Below are positions 9,615-39,395 of a stretch of 62,998 nucleotides of DNA, one piece after another. Under the pieces are notes generated by a model. It made no database searches, was not told the origin of the DNA, and saw nothing but the letters and a program-made list of their open reading frames with translations. The stretch is from positions 1-62,998 of the forward strand of contig NZ_BAAAYN010000037.1 in NCBI RefSeq assembly GCF_039536245.1, in the 5' to 3' direction. Numbering within the stretch: the stretch's first letter is position 1; the number at the start of each line of letters is the position of its first letter. The stretch comes from Cryptosporangium minutisporangium (GTDB lineage: Bacteria > Actinomycetota > Actinomycetes > Mycobacteriales > Cryptosporangiaceae). Both the position numbers and the translations under genes were made by a program.

Positions 9615-9802
9615 CCCGACAAACCCTCCGGCAACGACAGACGAAGACGATGACGAACCTCGTACTCATCCGGAGTACTGCTGCGGGCACTCGCGTAATC
9701 CGTCATCACTCCCGCAGAAGTCTTGATAGCCGCAGGACACCGGCACCTGCCGCATGGTGCCTTCGACCTCGATATGCCGCCTCGGCGGCCCACCGCCTGT
9801 CC

Positions 9803-10311
9803 CTACGGCTGTGGCGGTCGGTACCAGCCCGGACCGGGCGTTCCGAGCTCGGATCGCGCGGCGGCCAGGAACGCGGCTTCGGCGTCGCGGCACAACTGGA
9901 TCGTCTCGTCGGGGATCTCTCCAGCATCGTGGTCAACACGTACTTCAGCCAAGCGCGTCAGCGCACTCACCACCCCGTATGCCGCTTGGGCAGTTTCTAG
10001 AGACGAGCTGACCAGCCGGATCTCTTGCAGGCGACGGAGGGTCTCCGCTTGCGCTTCGCCGCCGAACGCATGTCTGGTGCGCGAAACTGTCGAAGCCTGC
10101 AGCAGAGTTGCGTCTCGCTCATGACAGTGGCGCGCCATTCGCGAGCCGCAGTCGCAAACGCTGACATGACCACGCGCTTGTCTCGCTTGTCCCGGTCCAG
10201 GGCCTCACGCTGCCAGGCCCGTGTCTGCGCTCGGCCCGACAGGTAAGAACCCAGAATGACTCCGCCGAGCGAACCAAGTACAGCCAACACCGCAATGAGC
10301 GCCTGCGCCAT
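9803..10311 (-). pseudogene. small membrane-anchored protein, frameshifted
   Basis: Two overlapping frames make one protein. The first starts MAQALIAVLAVLGSLGGVI (one transmembrane helix), then RAQTRAWQREALDRDKRDKR and AAREWRATV. The second continues with RDATLLQASTVSRTRHAFGGEA, then ETLRRLQEIR and finally DAEAAFLAAARSELGTPGPGW. The switch falls near 10115-10125. Whole, it would be about 165 aa: an N-terminal anchor followed by a long helical cytoplasmic domain, a layout seen in uncharacterised actinobacterial proteins. Either a real frameshift or a sequencing indel is possible. Confidence 0.6.
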
Positions 10312-10349
10312 GGTGACCTCATCCTCATCGCGGGTCGACAGGACGGTCT

Positions 10350-11063
10350 TTAGCTTGTCACCCGGCCGCCGAGCGCTCCTGCCATCTGGTGCCTCCGGGT
10401 GCGTTCCTCTTCAGGAGCGCGGTCGTTGGTAGCGGCCTTCCGACCGGGACGGCGGCGAGGTCTGCTCGCGGCCGTCCCGGCGGACGGCGTCTGTCTAAAG
10501 GGGAGTGCGACTGCAGCGAGCGCGTCGATTTGCTCGACGTCCTCGCCGTAGCAGTACAGAACGAGTTCGTCGGCGCCGAACGCGCGGTAGGCGGCCACGG
10601 TGTCGGCGATCTCGGCCGGGTCGCTCAGCGGCATGCCCCATCCGGGGCGGCCGGTGAAGGCGTAATAGTCGGCGATCGCGTGGCGTGCTTGCTCAACCGT
10701 CTCCGGCGACCCGATCGCGGTGTTGATTTGGCAGACCAGGCGGGGTTGCCCGGGGCGTCCGGCGGCGTCCCAGTCGTCGCGGACGGTCTGGACCAGCCCT
10801 CCGGCCCAGGCCAACGGCGCGGCACACAAGAAGCCGTCGCCGTGGCGGGCGACACGCCGCAGCGCCGCGGGTGCGAACGCCCCGATGAGGATGGGCGGTC
10901 CGCCGGGCGCCGAGGGCAGGGGGCCGATATCGGCACCCGCGTACGGCTCACCCCGCCAGATCGCGCGGAGATCGGTGAGTTGCTGCTCCAAGAGCCGGCC
11001 GCGCTGGTCGATCGGTGTTCCGGCGGCGGCGAAGTCGTCCTCTCGTCCGCCGACCCCGATACC
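10350..11063 (-). pseudogene. LLM-class flavin-dependent oxidoreductase, 5' truncated
   Basis: C-terminal half of a luciferase-like F420/FMN-dependent monooxygenase. It begins abruptly at GIGVGGREDDFAAAG, continues EQQLTDLRAIWRGEPY, PPILIGAFAPAALRRVARHGDGF (a family hallmark) and EIADTVAAYRAFGADELVLY. The N-terminal barrel strands with substrate and flavin contacts are missing, because the frame runs directly into the 3' end of the upstream hydrolase gene in another phase. The last 45 residues are Arg-rich and unlike the family. It is presumably non-functional. Confidence 0.75.
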
Positions 11064-11067
11064 GCAT

Positions 11068-11955
11068 TCACCTCCCGCGTTCGCTTGGGCCGGAACGGCT
11101 GACTGCGCTCGCCGTGGCGACGGCCTGGGCGAACTCGTCCGGTGCTTCCATCGGCACGAAGTGCCCCACTCCGCTCAGACGTCGGAGGTCGAGGTCGGCG
11201 AAGTACCACTCGAGCCGGTCCGACCACTCGAGCGGGAAGAGCGGATCCAAGTCTGGCCAGAGCACAGTGGTGGGCACGGCGATCCGATCCGCCGGCGCAG
11301 GTGGCTGTTCGGCGACCACCCGCGCCAGCCCACCGACGCTGCCGCGATACCAACCGAGCAGCGCGGTCGCCGCACCGGGCGCGGAGTACACCGAAACAAG
11401 ATGGTCCAGATGTCCGTCGGGCAGCGTGTACCCCGGGCCGGCCCAGTGGGTCCAGAAGAACCGCAGGAACGCGCGTACCGCTTGGGGCTGGCCATCGAGC
11501 AATTCCACCGCGAGCGGCAGCTGATTGAACGACAGGTACCAGAACTCCGGTGCCGCCCGTGGATCGAGGATTCGTTCACCGATGCCCGGTAGCGGCGGTG
11601 TCAGCACCAGCGCACCAACGAGGTCCGGCCGTAGCCGAGCCACCGCGACCGCCACCCGGCTACCGATGTCGTGCCCGGCCACCACCGGCCGATCCAGCCC
11701 CAATTCCTCGATCAGACCAATCACGCTGCGTGCCTGTGCATCGGCGGCGTAGGACGCAGGATCGGCGGCGTGCCGATCCGAGCCGCCGAATCCGCGCAGG
11801 TCCGGCACCACGACATCGCTCTCCGGCAAGAGGTCGACTACCGCGCGGTACTCGGTGCGGTCCCCTGGCCATCCGTGTAACAGCACCGCAGCGACGCCGC
11901 TGCCGCCGCGGTCATAACGGAGGCGAAACCCGTCGACGGCGCGCGTCCTACTCAC
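11068..11955 (-). CDS. alpha/beta hydrolase, epoxide hydrolase/dehalogenase type
   Basis: Cytosolic alpha/beta-hydrolase of 295 aa with an Asp nucleophile. It shows the oxyanion HGWPGD motif, the VPDLRGFGGSD strand and turn, the nucleophile elbow VVAGHDIGSRVAV (GHDxG, as in epoxide hydrolases and haloalkane dehalogenases), the charge-relay acid region WPDLDPLFP and the catalytic histidine in LSGVGHFVPMEAP. All catalytic positions are intact, in contrast to the related protein near 20-21 kb. The substrate is unknown. The truncated LLM gene follows directly on the same strand. Confidence 0.87.
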   Translation of the reverse strand: MSRTRAVDGFRLRYDRGGSGVAAVLLHGWPGDRTEYRAVVDLLPESDVVVPDLRGFGGSDRHAADPASYAADAQARSVIGLIEELGLDRPVVAGHDIGSRVAVAVARLRPDLVGALVLTPPLPGIGERILDPRAAPEFWYLSFNQLPLAVELLDGQPQAVRAFLRFFWTHWAGPGYTLPDGHLDHLVSVYSAPGAATALLGWYRGSVGGLARVVAEQPPAPADRIAVPTTVLWPDLDPLFPLEWSDRLEWYFADLDLRRLSGVGHFVPMEAPDEFAQAVATASAVSRSGPSERGR

Positions 11956-12096
11956 ACGACCACGGTAAACGGCAGGGGCAGAGCGGCGGTCGGATCGGCC
12001 GCGGACGACACGCGAGGGTCCGAGCGCCTCGGCGCGGGGACGCGCTGTCGAAGCCGACGGTGCGAGCGCCGACGCCGGGCGGTCCCGGGGTCGGCC

Positions 12097-13149
12097 CTAC
12101 GGCTTGACCGGCATCAGCAGCGAGTAGGCGCGGTCGTCGGCGGGCCGCCGGACGGCCAGCGGGCGGATCGGGCCATCCAGTTCGAGCACGAGCTGGCCTT
12201 CGCTGACAGCGCTCAGCGCCTCCAGGAGGAATTCCCGGTTGACCGCGACGTGCCGGTCCTGTCCGGCGCGCCACTCCTCCGCGCCGACCACGTCGATCCG
12301 GCCCTCGGCGTCGACTGCCAGCACGGCCAGCTCGTGGTCGACGCCCTCGTAGGAGTGGACGACCCGGGGCGCGCCGCTAACGGTGGCCCGCAGTGCGGCC
12401 GCGTCTACCGACGCGCGGCGCGGGCTGCCGGCGACGGTGCGGGTCTGGACGGCCCGGCGGTAGTCGGGGTAGTCGTACGCCAGCGGGGTGTCCTTGATCG
12501 TCCAACCATCGCCGACCGCCTCGATCTCCACCTTCTTCAGTTGCAGGCTCACCGGCTCATCCTGCTCGGGGTGGTTGCGGAGCCGGTCGACCCAGGAGGC
12601 CGGGGCTATCAACCGGGTGGCCGGGCCGTCGACGGTCGCCGGCTCGCGGTGGATGGCCATCCGGTAGCGATCGGTGGCCACGAAGGTCACGCCGTCGGCG
12701 TCGGCGTCGACCAGGACGCCCGCCAGCATCGGCAGCTCGGGGTCGTGGCCCACGGCGAAGCGCACGGAGCCGAGGGCGGCGGCCAGGACGGCGCGGGACA
12801 GGGTCACGGTGGTCATCGGGTTCTCCTGCGTGTCGAGAAGGGTGTGAACGCGGGAGAGCTCGCGGCGGGCATCGGCCAGGCCGTCTTCGAGGCGGCGTAG
12901 GTGCCGGTCCAGCAGTTCGTGCGCGACAGCCCGGTCGGCGCGGAGCACCGCGGCGATATCGGCCACCGGCATGCCGACCCGGCGCAGGCCGGCCACCAAC
13001 CGCGCTTGGTCGACCTGCTGCACGCTGTACCAGCGGTAGCCGTTGTCCGGATCGACCACAGCCGGTACCAACACCCCTGCGCGGTCGTAGAACCGCAGCG
13101 CGCTCACAGTGAGCCCGCTTGTCCGCGCGGTCTCGCCGATGCTCCGCAT
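12097..13149 (-). CDS. MerR regulator fused to beta-clamp-like domains
   Basis: 350-aa fusion. Residues 1-70 are a MerR winged helix (RSIGETARTSGLTVSALRFYDRAG, then NGYRWYSVQQV). Residues 75-110 form the MerR dimerisation coiled coil. From residue 112 the rest resembles DNA polymerase III beta-clamp domains 2 and 3: LPMLAGVLVDADADGVTFVATDRYRMA, later FLLEALSAVSEGQLVLELDGP, and a C-terminus YSLLMPVKP like the clamp MPVRL end. Clamp domain 1 is absent. An internal ATG (residue 112, base 12816) has AGGAG seven bases upstream, so a free clamp-like product is possible. ATG 13149 is preferred over the longer frame because the HTH begins there. Confidence 0.85.
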   Translation of the reverse strand: MRSIGETARTSGLTVSALRFYDRAGVLVPAVVDPDNGYRWYSVQQVDQARLVAGLRRVGMPVADIAAVLRADRAVAHELLDRHLRRLEDGLADARRELSRVHTLLDTQENPMTTVTLSRAVLAAALGSVRFAVGHDPELPMLAGVLVDADADGVTFVATDRYRMAIHREPATVDGPATRLIAPASWVDRLRNHPEQDEPVSLQLKKVEIEAVGDGWTIKDTPLAYDYPDYRRAVQTRTVAGSPRRASVDAAALRATVSGAPRVVHSYEGVDHELAVLAVDAEGRIDVVGAEEWRAGQDRHVAVNREFLLEALSAVSEGQLVLELDGPIRPLAVRRPADDRAYSLLMPVKP

Positions 13150-33320: not shown

Positions 33321-33411
33321 TCCTCTGTGATCTGGATGCCGCTGTAGTTACACGGATTCGGTGGGCTCGCCCGTGTGGGGTACGTGGACCACAACAGGGA
33401 AGGGGCCCAGG

Positions 33412-33954
33412 GTGCCGAGCACACCTGACCGGGCCGGTTTCGACGCCTTCGCGGCAGCACACGGCACCGCGCTGCTGCGCTTCGCGTTTCTGCTGACCGG
33501 CAACTACCACCTCGCCGAGGACATGCTTCAGGAAGCCCTGATGCGTGTTCACCGGCGCTGGACCAAACTCGAACGCCCGGAGGCGATCAGCAAGTACGTC
33601 CGGAAGGCGATCCTGCGGCAGTACCTGTCCTGGCGGCGGCTCCGCTCGTCGGCGGAGATGCCGTCGGCGGTCGCCCCCGACACGCCGCTCCCGGGCAGCG
33701 ACCACGCGGAACGCTACGCCGAGCGGGATGCGCTCCGGAACGCGCTCACCGCCCTACCCCGGCAGCAGCGTGCCGTCCTCGTCCTGCGCTTCTACGAAGA
33801 CCTCGACGACACGTCGATCGGCGAGCTCATCGGCTGCTCGCCCATCACCGTCCGTGCCCACGCCAGCCGAGGGCTGGCCCGCTTACGTGGGCAGTTGCCT
33901 TCGCAGGAATCGACGAGCACGGCCGAGACGTCTTCGAGGGGGCGCGCCCGATGA
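33412..33954 (+). CDS. SigE-family ECF RNA polymerase sigma factor
   Basis: 180-aa minimal sigma factor. Region 2 is FDAFAAAHGTALLRFAFLLTGN, then HLAEDMLQEALMRVHRRW. Region 4 is ALPRQQRAVLVLRFYEDLDD with ELIGCSPITVRAHASRGLARL as recognition helix. It matches the actinobacterial SigE-family (ECF) group. The GTG start is chosen for the purine-rich CAGGGAAGGGG upstream. Its stop overlaps the start of a membrane protein (ATGA), the usual place for a cognate anti-sigma factor. Confidence 0.88.
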   Translation: MPSTPDRAGFDAFAAAHGTALLRFAFLLTGNYHLAEDMLQEALMRVHRRWTKLERPEAISKYVRKAILRQYLSWRRLRSSAEMPSAVAPDTPLPGSDHAERYAERDALRNALTALPRQQRAVLVLRFYEDLDDTSIGELIGCSPITVRAHASRGLARLRGQLPSQESTSTAETSSRGRAR

Positions 33955-35135: not shown

Positions 35136-35734
35136 TCACGGGTTGAGCAACTCCGGGAAGCCGAACGCCGCGACCAGGGCGCGGTCGTGGAACTTGATGA
35201 CGCGGGAGACGCCGGTGGCGGTGGCGGCCAACACCACCACGCCGTCGGCTCGGAGCGTGCCCTCGGCGTCCCGGTGGTACACCACGGCGGCGGGTTGGCC
35301 GTTGGCCGTGGTGGCGACCATCTGCCAGTCGCCCGGTGCGCCCAGAACGTGCGTGCCGAGCATGTCGACGCAGCTCGTCCGGCCGGCTTGCCACTCGCGG
35401 AACGGCGTCGCTTCCAGCGTGGCATCCGTGCGTAGCACCTGTTCCAGCATGCGTGCGTCGGCGCGCTCGAAGGCCGCGATGTAGCCGTCGAGCAGCGCCC
35501 GTGCCCGCGGGTCGGTCGGTTCGAGGAGTTCCTCGGGTCGGGGGTCGAGTTCGTGCAGCCGGGCGCGGGCGCGCTGCATGCCGCTCTTGACCGCTGCGGT
35601 GGTGGTGCCGAGGATCTCCGCGGTCTCGGTAGCGGAGAACGCCAGCACCTCGCGCAGGAGGAGGATCGCGCGCTGGCGCGCCGGAAGGTGCTGCAGGCTG
35701 GCGATCAGCGCCAGCCGCAACCTCCGAGAGACGT
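35136..35734 (-). pseudogene. C-terminal half of an ECF sigma factor with SnoaL domain
   Basis: The fragment starts inside the linker just before region 4 (LRLALIASLQHLPARQRAIL) and includes AFSATETAEILGTTTAAVKS, MQRARARL and a full SnoaL-like tail (LLDGYIAAFERADARMLEQV). It ends at the normal C-terminus KFHDRALVAAFGFPELLNP. Region 2, needed for core binding and -10 melting, is missing. Upstream in the same orientation it is joined directly to the N-terminus of a quinone reductase in a different frame. It resembles the SigG/SigX5 group. Confidence 0.78.
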
Positions 35735-35902
35735 CCCGTAGGCCTGCATCACGTCGCGGAAATTGACGCCCGCGGCACCGACCCGGATCAGGACCTCGCC
35801 TGGGCCGGGGTTCGGCACCGGGGCGTCGGCGATCAGCCGCATGGCCCGCGGACCGTCCAGGGAGGTCTGCTGCAGCGCGCGCATGGTCGCGGGAATGCTC
35901 AT
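35735..35902 (-). pseudogene. N-terminal remnant of an MDR quinone oxidoreductase
   Basis: The first 56 codons of a zinc-independent alcohol dehydrogenase/NADPH:quinone reductase survive: MSIPATMRALQQTSLDGPRA, PVPNPGPGEVLIRVGAAGVN and FRDVMQAYG. At that point the sequence switches to the sigma-factor fragment. The whole nucleotide-binding domain is lost. The clean switch inside two same-strand genes is best explained by one deletion that removed the 3' part of this gene and the 5' part of the sigma gene. Confidence 0.78.
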
Positions 35903-36057
35903 CGGCGATCAGCCCTGCGTTCGCGTCGACACATCGGAGGAATCGACCGGGCTCGCCGCGCGGACCGCTCCCCGCGATGTGTAGACCTGGGCCACCCGCA
36001 AAAAGAATCGGTCCCGCACGTATCAGCCCGCAGAGCAGACCGGCTGCGGCTCGAACC

Positions 36058-38118
36058 TCACCCGGCCGGTGGGGTCCCGACCGCCCGTTCGACGTCGCTG
36101 CGCCAGACCTGTCCCGACGAGGCGGCGTCCGGTGCCGACGCCAGGGACTTCGCCCGCACGGTGTACGGGTGTTCCGGCCCGTAGCTGCCGTCGAAGATGC
36201 CGATCGCGCGCGCGAACACCGCACCGGACGCCGCCGCGTCGGCCAGACCGTGGTGGACGAGGCCGAGGTTCATCAGGGTGTGGGCGACGTCCGGGTGGTT
36301 CGGTCCGAGCGCCGCCTCGTAGGTCACGAGGGCTCGTCTCAAGACGCGGCGTGCGGCGTCGTAGTCGCCGCGGGCCGAGTGGTAAGTACCCACCCGGAGG
36401 AGGACCTCGGCGTCCTGGTGGGTCTTCGCGCCGCTACTGGTGGCGTGCTCGACCGCGGTCGTCGCGTGAACGACCAGAAGCGCGGTCGCCGGCCAGTTCT
36501 CTCGTCGCCACGGTTCGGTCGGCAACAACCCGAGAATCACGTCGACGGCATGGCGGGCCCAGGCCTCCCGCTTACGGCCCCGCCCCGGAAGGCCCGATTT
36601 GGAGGCGAGCTCGTGGAGGGCGGCCTGGGCCACTCGCGGACTCATGCGGATCCGGCGCTCGTCCCGCCGCGTGACCGATCCGCTGTCGATCAGCGCCGCG
36701 ATCGTGTCCTCGCGCTCGTGGTCCGACCTGGCGGCCCGCGCCAACTGGCTGGTCAGGGGCGTGTCCAACAGCTCAGGGCGGGACAGCAGCAGTTGGACGT
36801 CGATCAGGTCGGGGTCGAGGTGCGCGCAGAGCCGCAGTAGCTCCGCCGCAGCAGGTGAGTTCAGTTGTGGCATCTCGGCTGGTGGCACCGAGACGCCGAG
36901 ACCCGCTGGCGGCTGCTGGCGAGGGTCGGCGGCAGGCGGCCCGGCGAACGACGCGGGTCGTCTGATTCGGCGGACCGATCGCACGACCAGGAACAGCGCG
37001 ATGCCCACGACGAGGACGACACCGATGCCCGGCCCGTACGAGGTGAGCGCTGCGGGCCGGGAGGCCGATTCGAACCGGCGGGCCGCCGCCACGTCGGCGT
37101 TGGTCGGCGGCGTCGTCGGCTGTGCCCGGGACACCAGCGGATTGTGTGTCACGGGGGGTACGTCCGCGGTCAACGCTTCGATCAGGTCGAGCCGCCCGAA
37201 GCCGTAGAGGGGATCGCGGCCCGGCGTACCGGCGTCGTCGGCGGTTGTGATCAGCCGCTGGATGACTCCGCCGGCGGTCAGGTCGGGGAACCGCGACCAC
37301 AGCAGCGCTGCGGCACCGGAGACCACCGCGGTTGATGCGCTGGTCCCGTCGCCGATGGTGTAGCCGGCTTTGGCGTGGAGCCGTGAGGTGGCCGTGCCGA
37401 TGCCTTGGCCTGGTGCGGCGAGGACAGCACCCGGGCCGGTGGTCGAGACGGCGGCGATCTGGCCGGTCTGGTTGGTGGCGGTGACGGCGAGGACTCCGGG
37501 TAAGGCCGCTGGGTAGAGCATCGTGGTGTCCCTGGGCTGGTTGCCGGCCCCGGCGATTACCAGCACCCCGCGTTGGTGGGCGTAGTCGACGGCCGCGCGG
37601 AGGTAGGCGTCGTCGGCGTGGGTGCCCAATGAGCAGTTGATGATCTTCGCGCCGTGGTCGGCGGCCCAGCGTATTCCGGCGGCGATGTCGGGGGAGTAGT
37701 CACCGGTTCGGACCGGGAGGACCTGGGCGGCGGGCGCCAGCCCCAGCGCGTGGTCGCCGGCCGGTCCTTTCCCGACGATGAGGCTGGCCATGGCGGTGCC
37801 GTGTCCGTCCGGGTCGACGGTCGGGTCGGTGCTCCCCGGGATGCCGAAGACCGCACCGGGCAAGATCCGGCCGCGTAGGTCCGGATGCCCGGCGTCGACG
37901 CCGGTGTCGACCACCGCCACGATCACGCCGGCGCCGTTGGACAGTTGGTGTGCCTTCGCGACCTGAAGGCTGCGCAGGTACCACTGGGCATCGTCCAGCG
38001 TCTCCGCGTTCGCGGGCCGGGCACCGATGGTCACCAGCAGCAACGACACACCGAGCAGCAGTATCGCTCGCACACCGGCGCGTCCGGTCGAGACCGGACG
38101 ACACGACGACTGGAACAC
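36058..38118 (-). CDS. mycosin-like subtilase fused to winged-helix/TPR module
   Basis: 686-aa protein. A signal sequence (AILLLGVSLLLVTIG) leads into an S8 subtilase domain with the full triad: Asp71 (VVDTGVDAGHPDL), His106 (DGHGTAMASLIVG), Ser260 (DGTSASTAVVSG), and oxyanion Asn193. A transmembrane helix at 361-379 follows, as in type VII secretion mycosins. Instead of ending there, 300 cytoplasmic residues continue. These hold a winged-helix-like part (ELLRLCAHLDPDLIDVQLLL and RRIRMSPRVAQAAL) and TPR repeats (ALVTYEAALGPNHPDVAHTL, NLGLVHHG). This matches the post-NTPase half of NB-ARC/TPR proteins, without an NTPase. GTG 38118 has AGGAG 9 bases upstream. Confidence 0.85.
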   Translation of the reverse strand: MFQSSCRPVSTGRAGVRAILLLGVSLLLVTIGARPANAETLDDAQWYLRSLQVAKAHQLSNGAGVIVAVVDTGVDAGHPDLRGRILPGAVFGIPGSTDPTVDPDGHGTAMASLIVGKGPAGDHALGLAPAAQVLPVRTGDYSPDIAAGIRWAADHGAKIINCSLGTHADDAYLRAAVDYAHQRGVLVIAGAGNQPRDTTMLYPAALPGVLAVTATNQTGQIAAVSTTGPGAVLAAPGQGIGTATSRLHAKAGYTIGDGTSASTAVVSGAAALLWSRFPDLTAGGVIQRLITTADDAGTPGRDPLYGFGRLDLIEALTADVPPVTHNPLVSRAQPTTPPTNADVAAARRFESASRPAALTSYGPGIGVVLVVGIALFLVVRSVRRIRRPASFAGPPAADPRQQPPAGLGVSVPPAEMPQLNSPAAAELLRLCAHLDPDLIDVQLLLSRPELLDTPLTSQLARAARSDHEREDTIAALIDSGSVTRRDERRIRMSPRVAQAALHELASKSGLPGRGRKREAWARHAVDVILGLLPTEPWRRENWPATALLVVHATTAVEHATSSGAKTHQDAEVLLRVGTYHSARGDYDAARRVLRRALVTYEAALGPNHPDVAHTLMNLGLVHHGLADAAASGAVFARAIGIFDGSYGPEHPYTVRAKSLASAPDAASSGQVWRSDVERAVGTPPAG

Positions 38119-38230: not shown

Positions 38231-39286
38231 TTACGGGTGAGTGTGAGGCTCGTCAAATCTCGGCGTTGTGCCGACGCCGTGATCGCGGGGTGTGGTGAGC
38301 TGGTCCAGCAGGCTCTGCCGGATCGTCGGCCGGGTGCCGAAGTTCAGCAGAAATGCCGCTTCCCGCAGCAGTCGCTGCGGATGGCTGTCGATCAACACCG
38401 AGCTGCTGCCCTGATGCACGAAGAGCGCGGCCGCGGCGCGCAACGCGAACTCGGAGCTGACCGCACGTCCGACCGGCACGTCCTGCGGCGCCGCCTGCTG
38501 CAGCCGTTCGCGGACGCTGGCCAGCTCGGCGGAGAGTGCCGCGCCGTCCTCACCCATCAGCCTGATCGCACGGTCGGCCACCCCGCGGGCGAGGGAGCCG
38601 GTGAACCGCAGCGATTCGGCGTCGCCCTCCAGATACTCCGACCTCGGCTGTAGGGCGGTTACCCGGTCGTCGGGCACGAAGTGGTCGTGGAACTCCAGCG
38701 TCACCGTCCGGCTGGCCTGCACCGCGATCATCTCCAGCGGCCGGACGGTCATCGAAGCGCTCTCGGTCGCGTCCACGAGCGCCCACACCAGCACGTCGTC
38801 TTCCTGGCGCGCTGCGACGTAGAGCGTGTCCACCATGTCCCAGCCGGTCACCCACGGCGCGGTGCCGGTGAACCGCCATCCACCGGGAACGGCGGTGGCG
38901 CGCAGCATCGGTGGGCCGGGGCGCGCGGCGGCGCCGATCGCCATGCCGGCCCGGCGCGCACCGGCGGCCAGCGGTGCCAGGTACTCCGCGCGGATCGTCT
39001 CGTTGCTGGTCTTCGCCGCGGCGGACATCGCGCCGTGATGCTGCACCCACACAAAAGCCGTGGTGAGACACCCGCCGGCGAGCAACTCGACCACCCGCTG
39101 CACCGCCGGGTAGTCGGGCAGGTCGAGAGTGGTCAGCTCCTCCGGCGCCGCGAGGCTGTAGAAGCCCTTCTCCGCCAAGAGGTCGAGATGGGTCTTCGGC
39201 ACCCGTCCCGACCGCTCGACCTCGATCGCTGCGGGGAACAGGACATCGTCGGCAATGTGCTGGGCGTCGCGCATGGACTGGGACAC
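38231..39286 (-). CDS. acyl-CoA dehydrogenase family protein
   Basis: 351-aa flavoprotein-fold enzyme. It shows an N-terminal helical domain (RDAQHIADDVLFPAAIEVER, EKGFYSLAAPEELTTLDLP), a middle beta domain (GMAIGAAARPGPPML, GGWRFTGTAPWVTGW, SRTVTLEFHDHFVPDDRV) and a C-terminal helical domain. The usual catalytic Glu and C-terminal FAD motif are not obvious and the length is shorter than the 380-400 aa norm. It may belong to the flavin-dependent monooxygenase (DszC/HsaA-like) side of the superfamily. GTG 39286 with AGGAG upstream is preferred to the longer frame. Confidence 0.8.
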   Translation of the reverse strand: MSQSMRDAQHIADDVLFPAAIEVERSGRVPKTHLDLLAEKGFYSLAAPEELTTLDLPDYPAVQRVVELLAGGCLTTAFVWVQHHGAMSAAAKTSNETIRAEYLAPLAAGARRAGMAIGAAARPGPPMLRATAVPGGWRFTGTAPWVTGWDMVDTLYVAARQEDDVLVWALVDATESASMTVRPLEMIAVQASRTVTLEFHDHFVPDDRVTALQPRSEYLEGDAESLRFTGSLARGVADRAIRLMGEDGAALSAELASVRERLQQAAPQDVPVGRAVSSEFALRAAAALFVHQGSSSVLIDSHPQRLLREAAFLLNFGTRPTIRQSLLDQLTTPRDHGVGTTPRFDEPHTHP

Positions 39287-39395
39287 AGGTCCGCTCCTAC
39301 GTCGCAAGGCTGCCGCCACCCTATCGCCCACCCGCGGCGCAGGAGCCGTTCCGGCGCTCCGACCCGCGGCAGTTCGACCGCCGCGACCTGCGCCG

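Follow-up and report, generated by a model that had tools for sequence, protein, structure and literature searches.

A predicted mycosin-like membrane subtilase with a putative STAND-derived winged-helix/TPR tail in Cryptosporangium minutisporangium

Gene and Domain Structure

The subject of this report is a single gene of the actinomycete Cryptosporangium minutisporangium (NCBI RefSeq assembly GCF_039536245.1), located on contig NZ_BAAAYN010000037.1 (C37 below), of which a stretch of 62,998 nucleotides (the window) was analysed. The product of this gene, called here the fusion protein, is predicted to join a protease of the S8 (subtilase) type, via a membrane helix, to a long tail that resembles the winged-helix and tetratricopeptide repeat (TPR) half of STAND proteins, i.e., the part of these proteins that follows their nucleoside triphosphatase (NTPase) domain. 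The features of the gene, all on the minus strand, are as follows.

36058..38118, minus strand: whole gene, 686 amino acids (GTG start at 38118, stop at 36058; AGGAG upstream; codon-position G+C)
38005..38118, minus strand: putative signal peptide, residues 1-38, with hydrophobic core 14-32 and a signal-peptidase-type A-N-A ahead of residue 39 (hydropathy; cleavage site judged by eye)
37195..37935, minus strand: S8 (subtilase) domain, residues 62-308, with Asp71, His106, Asn193 and Ser260 (Pfam, model, sequence)
36967..37029, minus strand: predicted membrane helix, residues 364-384, then an arginine-rich stretch (helix in model; hydropathy; residues)
36862..36966, minus strand: Pro/Ala-rich linker, residues 385-419, of low model confidence (structure model)
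36598..36861, minus strand: winged-helix-like region, residues 420-507, probable relative of the post-NB-ARC unit of STAND proteins (homology, Pfam, model)
36631..36642, minus strand: residues 493-496 (S-P-R-V), at the histidine position of the H-R-L motif (alignment of 39 relatives)
36082..36420, minus strand: three TPR-like helix pairs, residues 567-679, the last pair being the least regular (Pfam, model, structure search)

The AGGAG is located 9 bases ahead of the GTG start; an alternative start, the upstream TTG at 38256, would give a protein of 732 amino acids. The G+C content of third codon positions is 0.87 for residues 40-330, 0.84 for 330-415, 0.86 for 415-560 and 0.89 for 560-686. 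As the values stay at 0.84-0.89 for residue 40 onwards, a single coding frame runs through the protease and tail halves. Thus, the one frame of 686 amino acids that had been described in an earlier reading, made from the DNA letters only (the sequence-only reading), was confirmed at 36058-38118, and its strand can now be assigned as minus.

Hydropathy analysis revealed two hydrophobic segments in the fusion protein, at residues 14-32 and 364-382. The membrane helix is followed directly by VVRSVRRIRR. According to the positive-inside rule, the positively charged flank of a membrane helix faces the cytoplasm, which would place residues 385-686 inside the cell. The tail is therefore most likely cytoplasmic, as the sequence-only reading had proposed for the approximately 300 residues beyond the helix, and the protease would be situated outside the membrane.

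The Protease Domain and its Relation to Mycosins

Pfam Peptidase_S8 matches residues 62-308 at 177 bits; Asp71, His106 and Ser260 lie within subtilase motifs, and the oxyanion residue is Asn193. The S8 protease had previously been judged to be intact, and these results bear this out. The model of the domain is of high confidence, and its fold matches are subtilisins and, at ranks 47-48, the mycosin MycP1 (4m1z, 4kb5). The best sequence matches of the protease half are 44-46% identical in the same genus and 47-51% identical in other families. In a tree of 43 S8 sequences, the fusion protein is on a long branch (0.9), without a starred partner.

The mycosin model TIGR03921 matches residues 51-384 at 262.9 bits, which is slightly under the equivalog cut-off of 278.75. 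When the same model was applied to seven other S8 proteins (four of them scored as matched segments only), three passed (L115, L059 and L060; 289-313 bits), one of which, L059, is near WXG100 genes, and four failed, including the mycosin that adjoins ESX genes on contig C105 (212.9 bits). The equivalog cut-off thus has no power to separate groups here. The protease half, judged by its sequence, is closest to the mycosins.

Mycosins belong to the ESX (type VII) secretion systems, and the tail could be seen as the docking arm of a mycosin acting in trans, which caps or stabilises an ESX machine while the TPRs hold a part of the machine or a substrate. The match of the protease and helix to the mycosin model is in keeping with this, as is the presence of ESX genes in the genome, and in a passage of PMC5082899 mycosins are described as stabilising ESX complexes independently of proteolysis. 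However, the score is under the cut-off (although that of the ESX-adjoining mycosin on C105 is lower still) and the fusion protein does not form a starred grouping with any mycosin. In addition, EccB and WXG100 have no match on C37, the only matches in the genome being on C105 and C17, and both of these ESX gene groups have their own mycosin-like gene within about 10 kb. A docking arm is thus considered unlikely. The statement in the sequence-only reading that type VII secretion genes are not found nearby holds for these two markers on C37.

At both ESX loci, there is a protein near the mycosin that consists of a right-handed β-helix, an AAA ATPase and a lid: L115 (C17:385000-400000), 9714-11393, 559 amino acids, and L117 (C105), 10639-12357, 572 amino acids. 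As a guess, these may be EccA-like. All four genomes of the genus contain relatives of the C17 mycosin, and these fall into a single clade.

Occurrence of the Architecture

The length of sequence beyond the membrane helix was compared for 54 other S8 proteins, of which some were set aside, namely 5 in which no helix is predicted and 9 that are truncated where the available sequence stops. In all 40 that could be measured, 4-141 residues follow the helix, versus about 300 (304 by hydropathy) in the fusion protein. Mycosins are described as being without extra domains in a passage of PMC8131196. The earlier statement that mycosins normally end after the helix is broadly correct. The four longest tails, in mycosin-like proteins from other families (L060, L061, L062 and L069), comprise 113-141 residues, are rich in proline and alanine, and are apparently disordered.

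The combination of protease, membrane helix, winged helix and TPRs was sought in several genome sets, which overlap and in which a divergent copy could escape the cut-offs and candidate limits; no second copy was found in the sets searched. With the tail as the query, none of the 3 other genomes of the genus (2 with a match) had a match across both halves, nor, with the whole protein as the query, did any of 4 other genomes of the genus and family. The tail revealed no second fusion in 298 genomes of the order (4 with a match; E ≤ 1e-12, 8 candidates per genome) or in 394 of the class (4 with a match; E ≤ 1e-14, 6 candidates), and the whole protein revealed none in the 394 class genomes (36 with a match; E ≤ 1e-50, 2 candidates), the own genome being included in each of these counts. 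The same was the case for the whole protein in the family of genome G350 (35 genomes, 8 with a match; E ≤ 1e-60, up to 33 candidates) and in the family of genome G547 (341 genomes, 60 with a match; E ≤ 1e-42, 3 candidates). The three matches that extended furthest, in G659 (to residue 517), G661 (456) and G018 (439), were rejected as second copies: each has stops inside the match and proved to be an S8 protein whose tail is of the usual short kind.

A scan of GTDB with two narrow peptide patterns yielded five relatives, none of which is a fusion and four of which are from other phyla; at the only actinobacterial locus (L088), there are two open reading frames, with NB-ARC in both. Among plasmids, 369 records match and none covers 80% of the fusion protein; the same applies to the 46 matching phages, and the single match among viral contigs is limited to the protease part. 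In open-licence papers, no title or start of an abstract concerned a STAND-type TPR tail on a mycosin or subtilase. Thus, the fusion is a singleton in the genomes, plasmids, phages and viral contigs searched.

Homology and Predicted Fold of the Tail

Two proteins encoded by the same genome are 46-47% identical to residues 420-625 of the tail (E values of 4e-43 and 5e-36); according to Pfam, they comprise TIR, NB-ARC, DUF7779 and TPR domains (L025:6266-8371 and L026:5420-7801; for L026, NB-ARC scores 20.2 bits, under the curated 23.5). In the family search, homology extended over residues 420-651 for the nearest relative and 415-658 at its widest. When 40 tail regions were placed in a tree, the fusion protein fell into a clade of six with support of 100/99, together with the two TIR-NB-ARC-TPR paralogues, two Catellatospora proteins and one protein from the same genus; the order within the clade is open. 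By tree path and identity, the nearest relatives met are the two paralogues, and the Catellatospora pair is almost as near. The identity to two own-genome proteins together with the 100/99 clade shows that the tail shares descent, and not merely style, with the part of NB-ARC/TPR (STAND) proteins that follows their NTPase. This module is a common one: a five-row profile that includes the fusion itself has a match at 1e-8 in 72 of the 296 class genomes, the own genome being counted among them.

Pfam detects TPR_12 in residues 570-641 (52 bits) and, weakly, DUF7779 in residues 421-491 (16 bits with the whole protein and 19 bits with the tail alone; cut-off 27). In the full-length structure model, most of residues 420-507 are of low confidence; a model of the tail from an alignment of 40 sequences (42 rows computed, with the near-repeats L120 and L125 left out) is much better, with a mean predicted local distance difference test (pLDDT) score of 91, and comprises a winged-helix-like unit and TPRs. 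In structure searches with the tail, the TPR part resembled the TPRs of kinesin light chain and Rap; a solved STAND winged helix was not among the matches listed, which is not evidence against a winged helix. The winged helix is thus suggested by homology and by the predicted order of helices and strands. The proposal in the sequence-only reading that a winged-helix/TPR half of a STAND-like protein follows the protease agrees with the identity, the clade and the model; for residues 380-686 as a structure, the TPRs stood by both model and matches, and the winged helix was modelled, the structure searches having matched TPR proteins.

Having such close relatives in the same genome, the tail might act at the membrane as a decoy for the TIR-NB-ARC-TPR paralogues or as their anchor, titrating their ligand or recruiting them, the protease serving mainly as an anchor or being used on release. 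A precedent for NTPase-free TPR parts comes from FxSxx-type systems, in which, in a passage of PMC7159879, TPRs are fused to a vWA protein beside a separate TIR-AP-ATPase. Nevertheless, the three genes are on different contigs (C37 for the fusion, C24 and C11 for the paralogues), the catalytic residues are intact, although a protein that is only an anchor could do without them, and a precursor of the FxSxx type was not seen in the stretches scanned: no open reading frame of 25-159 amino acids ending in FxSxx is present in the window, L025, L026 or L029. A decoy is, therefore, distinctly improbable.

Membership of an FxSxx system on the basis of NF040586 was rejected: both paralogues pass this model, but so do all 10 NB-ARC/TPR proteins tried (the L025 gene again plus nine further genes). 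NF040586 (“FxSxx TPR”) is unspecific, and names based on it may mislead.

Loss of the NTPase and of the Sensor Histidine

The tail module is present in 48 other reading-frame rows (including several rows of the same gene), of which 39 have a P-loop by pattern and a further 3 by eye; the remainder are 5 rows cut by the end of the DNA and one short frame (L091) without a P-loop. The P-loop of these relatives is usually about 200 residues ahead of the module match, a distance at which the fusion protein carries the protease. Neither Pfam nor the pattern detected a P-loop NTPase domain in the fusion protein. Furthermore, 39 of 39 aligned relatives retain the histidine of an H-R-L motif that closes the winged helix, whereas the fusion protein has lost it and reads M-S-P-R-V there (by alignment, P or S at this position). 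The MHD motif of the winged-helix domain is required for ADP binding in plant NLRs, according to PMC8813719. The bacterial H-R-L is probably the counterpart of this nucleotide sensor. With the NTPase absent and the winged-helix histidine lost, the tail cannot act as a nucleotide switch. The term “STAND-like” thus fits the origin of the tail, not its mechanism.

Of the positions that 80% or more of the relatives conserve, the fusion protein keeps 16 of 25, and the two paralogues keep 22 of 28 and 23 of 27. The nine lost positions are in the winged helix (440, 481, 494 and 496) and in the TPR part (580, 626, 631, 667 and 672).

The protein could also be an NTPase-free, NLR-derived transmembrane receptor that signals inside-out, in which a ligand of the tail switches or clusters the extracellular subtilase and nucleotide is not needed. 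Such a receptor is held to be improbable.

Genomic Context

On its upstream side, the fusion gene is flanked by an acyl-CoA dehydrogenase gene (38231-39331), beyond which are the genes of a response regulator and a sensor kinase. On the downstream side, two broken genes form a scar; beyond it, on the plus strand, are an ECF sigma factor gene (33361-33954) and a gene for a protein of 368 amino acids, which has no Pfam match over the cut-off. The scar (35173-35905, minus strand) consists of an ECF sigma gene that lacks its 5′ end (35173-35719) and a fragment encoding the N-terminal part of a zinc-type alcohol dehydrogenase (35734-35905). In genome G001 (L110), the stretches that match the scar are about 1.2 kb apart, in two adjoining genes that look intact. 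In the same-genus genome G002, where the fusion gene was not found, the best matches of the dehydrogenase (89% DNA identity) and of the two-component genes (76%) are about 32 kb apart on one contig, which implies that the region has been rearranged. These same-genus matches of the neighbours also place C37 in the genus, so contamination is an unlikely source of the gene.

A rearranged region raises the question of whether the fusion arose by chance, a mycosin-like gene having been joined, after a rearrangement, to the 3′ half of some STAND gene, with a tail that is drifting and has little function. The singleton status, the long branch, the change of 9 of 25 conserved positions and the scar directly downstream are all consistent with this. 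On the other hand, the frame is open, third positions are coding-like up to the stop, and both halves are unbroken although only about 46-51% identical to their nearest relatives; the compact tail model (pLDDT 91) points the same way, but is weak proof, as relatives are in the alignment of the model. A chance fusion is unlikely.

The sequence-only reading had suggested an envelope-stress or defence effector. The neighbours are the acyl-CoA dehydrogenase, the two-component system and the scar, and PADLOC gave a generic subtilase match for the fusion protein (PDLC03014, 8.4e-22) and weak IetS matches (4.4e-5), with no match in the four window neighbours tried. An AAA ATPase partner of the IetAS type was not found among the neighbours scanned with Pfam, a subset of the open reading frames of the window. 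A defence or envelope-stress role is thus possible, but has so far gained no specific support.

Possible Function

The sensor half of a STAND protein is commonly considered to act through movement against its own NTPase. The explanation that is favoured here, with a probability of roughly 0.42, is that a mycosin-like, tail-anchored subtilase captured the winged-helix/TPR half of an immune-type TIR-NB-ARC-TPR protein as its cytoplasmic domain, which would serve as an NTPase-independent docking or sensing tail that steers the outer protease. A protein or peptide of the cytoplasm would bind in the TPR groove, and this could plausibly be the ligand or class of partner that the two TIR-NB-ARC-TPR paralogues recognise; the changed residues of the tail could equally mean a new partner instead of a shared ligand. 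Binding would cluster, position or stabilise the protease in the envelope, and a cytoplasmic event could thereby control proteolysis outside.

Several points weigh against this explanation. The influence of the tail on the protease is inferred only, a partner gene is not apparent beside the fusion gene, and selection on the fusion cannot be measured, as no orthologue was found. The tail branch has a length of 1.24, compared with 0.41 and 0.49 in the own-genome paralogues (2.5 to 3 times), a difference that is compatible with drift and with a new role alike. L010, a member of the clade that has an NB-ARC domain, has an equally long branch (1.28); thus, branch length alone is not a mark of NTPase loss.

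If the favoured explanation is true, a STAND sensor half can be reused alone, free of its NTPase, on a mycosin-like protease, and there is a route by which a cytoplasmic signal can control proteolysis beyond the membrane. A single known instance is a lead, not a system.

Comparison with Known Systems

The fusion protein is assigned to no family here, as it fails the location and architecture of ESX mycosins and lacks the NTPase of STAND proteins. In its working, it most probably resembles a tail-anchored mycosin to which a cytoplasmic adaptor has been added. Like the mycosins (MycP; TIGR03921, ESX type VII secretion), it has an S8 domain with an intact triad and, as predicted from sequence, a signal peptide and a single C-terminal helix; unlike them, it is under the equivalog cut-off, has no EccB or WXG100 on its contig, and carries the tail of about 300 residues after the helix. 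With the TIR-NB-ARC-TPR proteins L025 and L026 it shares the winged-helix-like and TPR region, but not TIR, NB-ARC, the P-loop or the H-R-L histidine, and it is predicted to be membrane-bound, with a protease. With IetS-type and other PADLOC subtilases it shares the S8 domain; however, the NCBIfam model for S8 anti-phage proteins scores 20.2 bits versus a cut-off of 900. The vWA-TPR proteins of FxSxx-type VMAP-ternary systems differ in that the partner of the TPRs in the fusion protein is an extracellular-type protease with a helix, and in that no small open reading frame ending in FxSxx accompanies it in the stretches scanned, but are similar in that, as described in PMC7159879, their TPRs are separate from the AP-ATPase and fused to a different domain.
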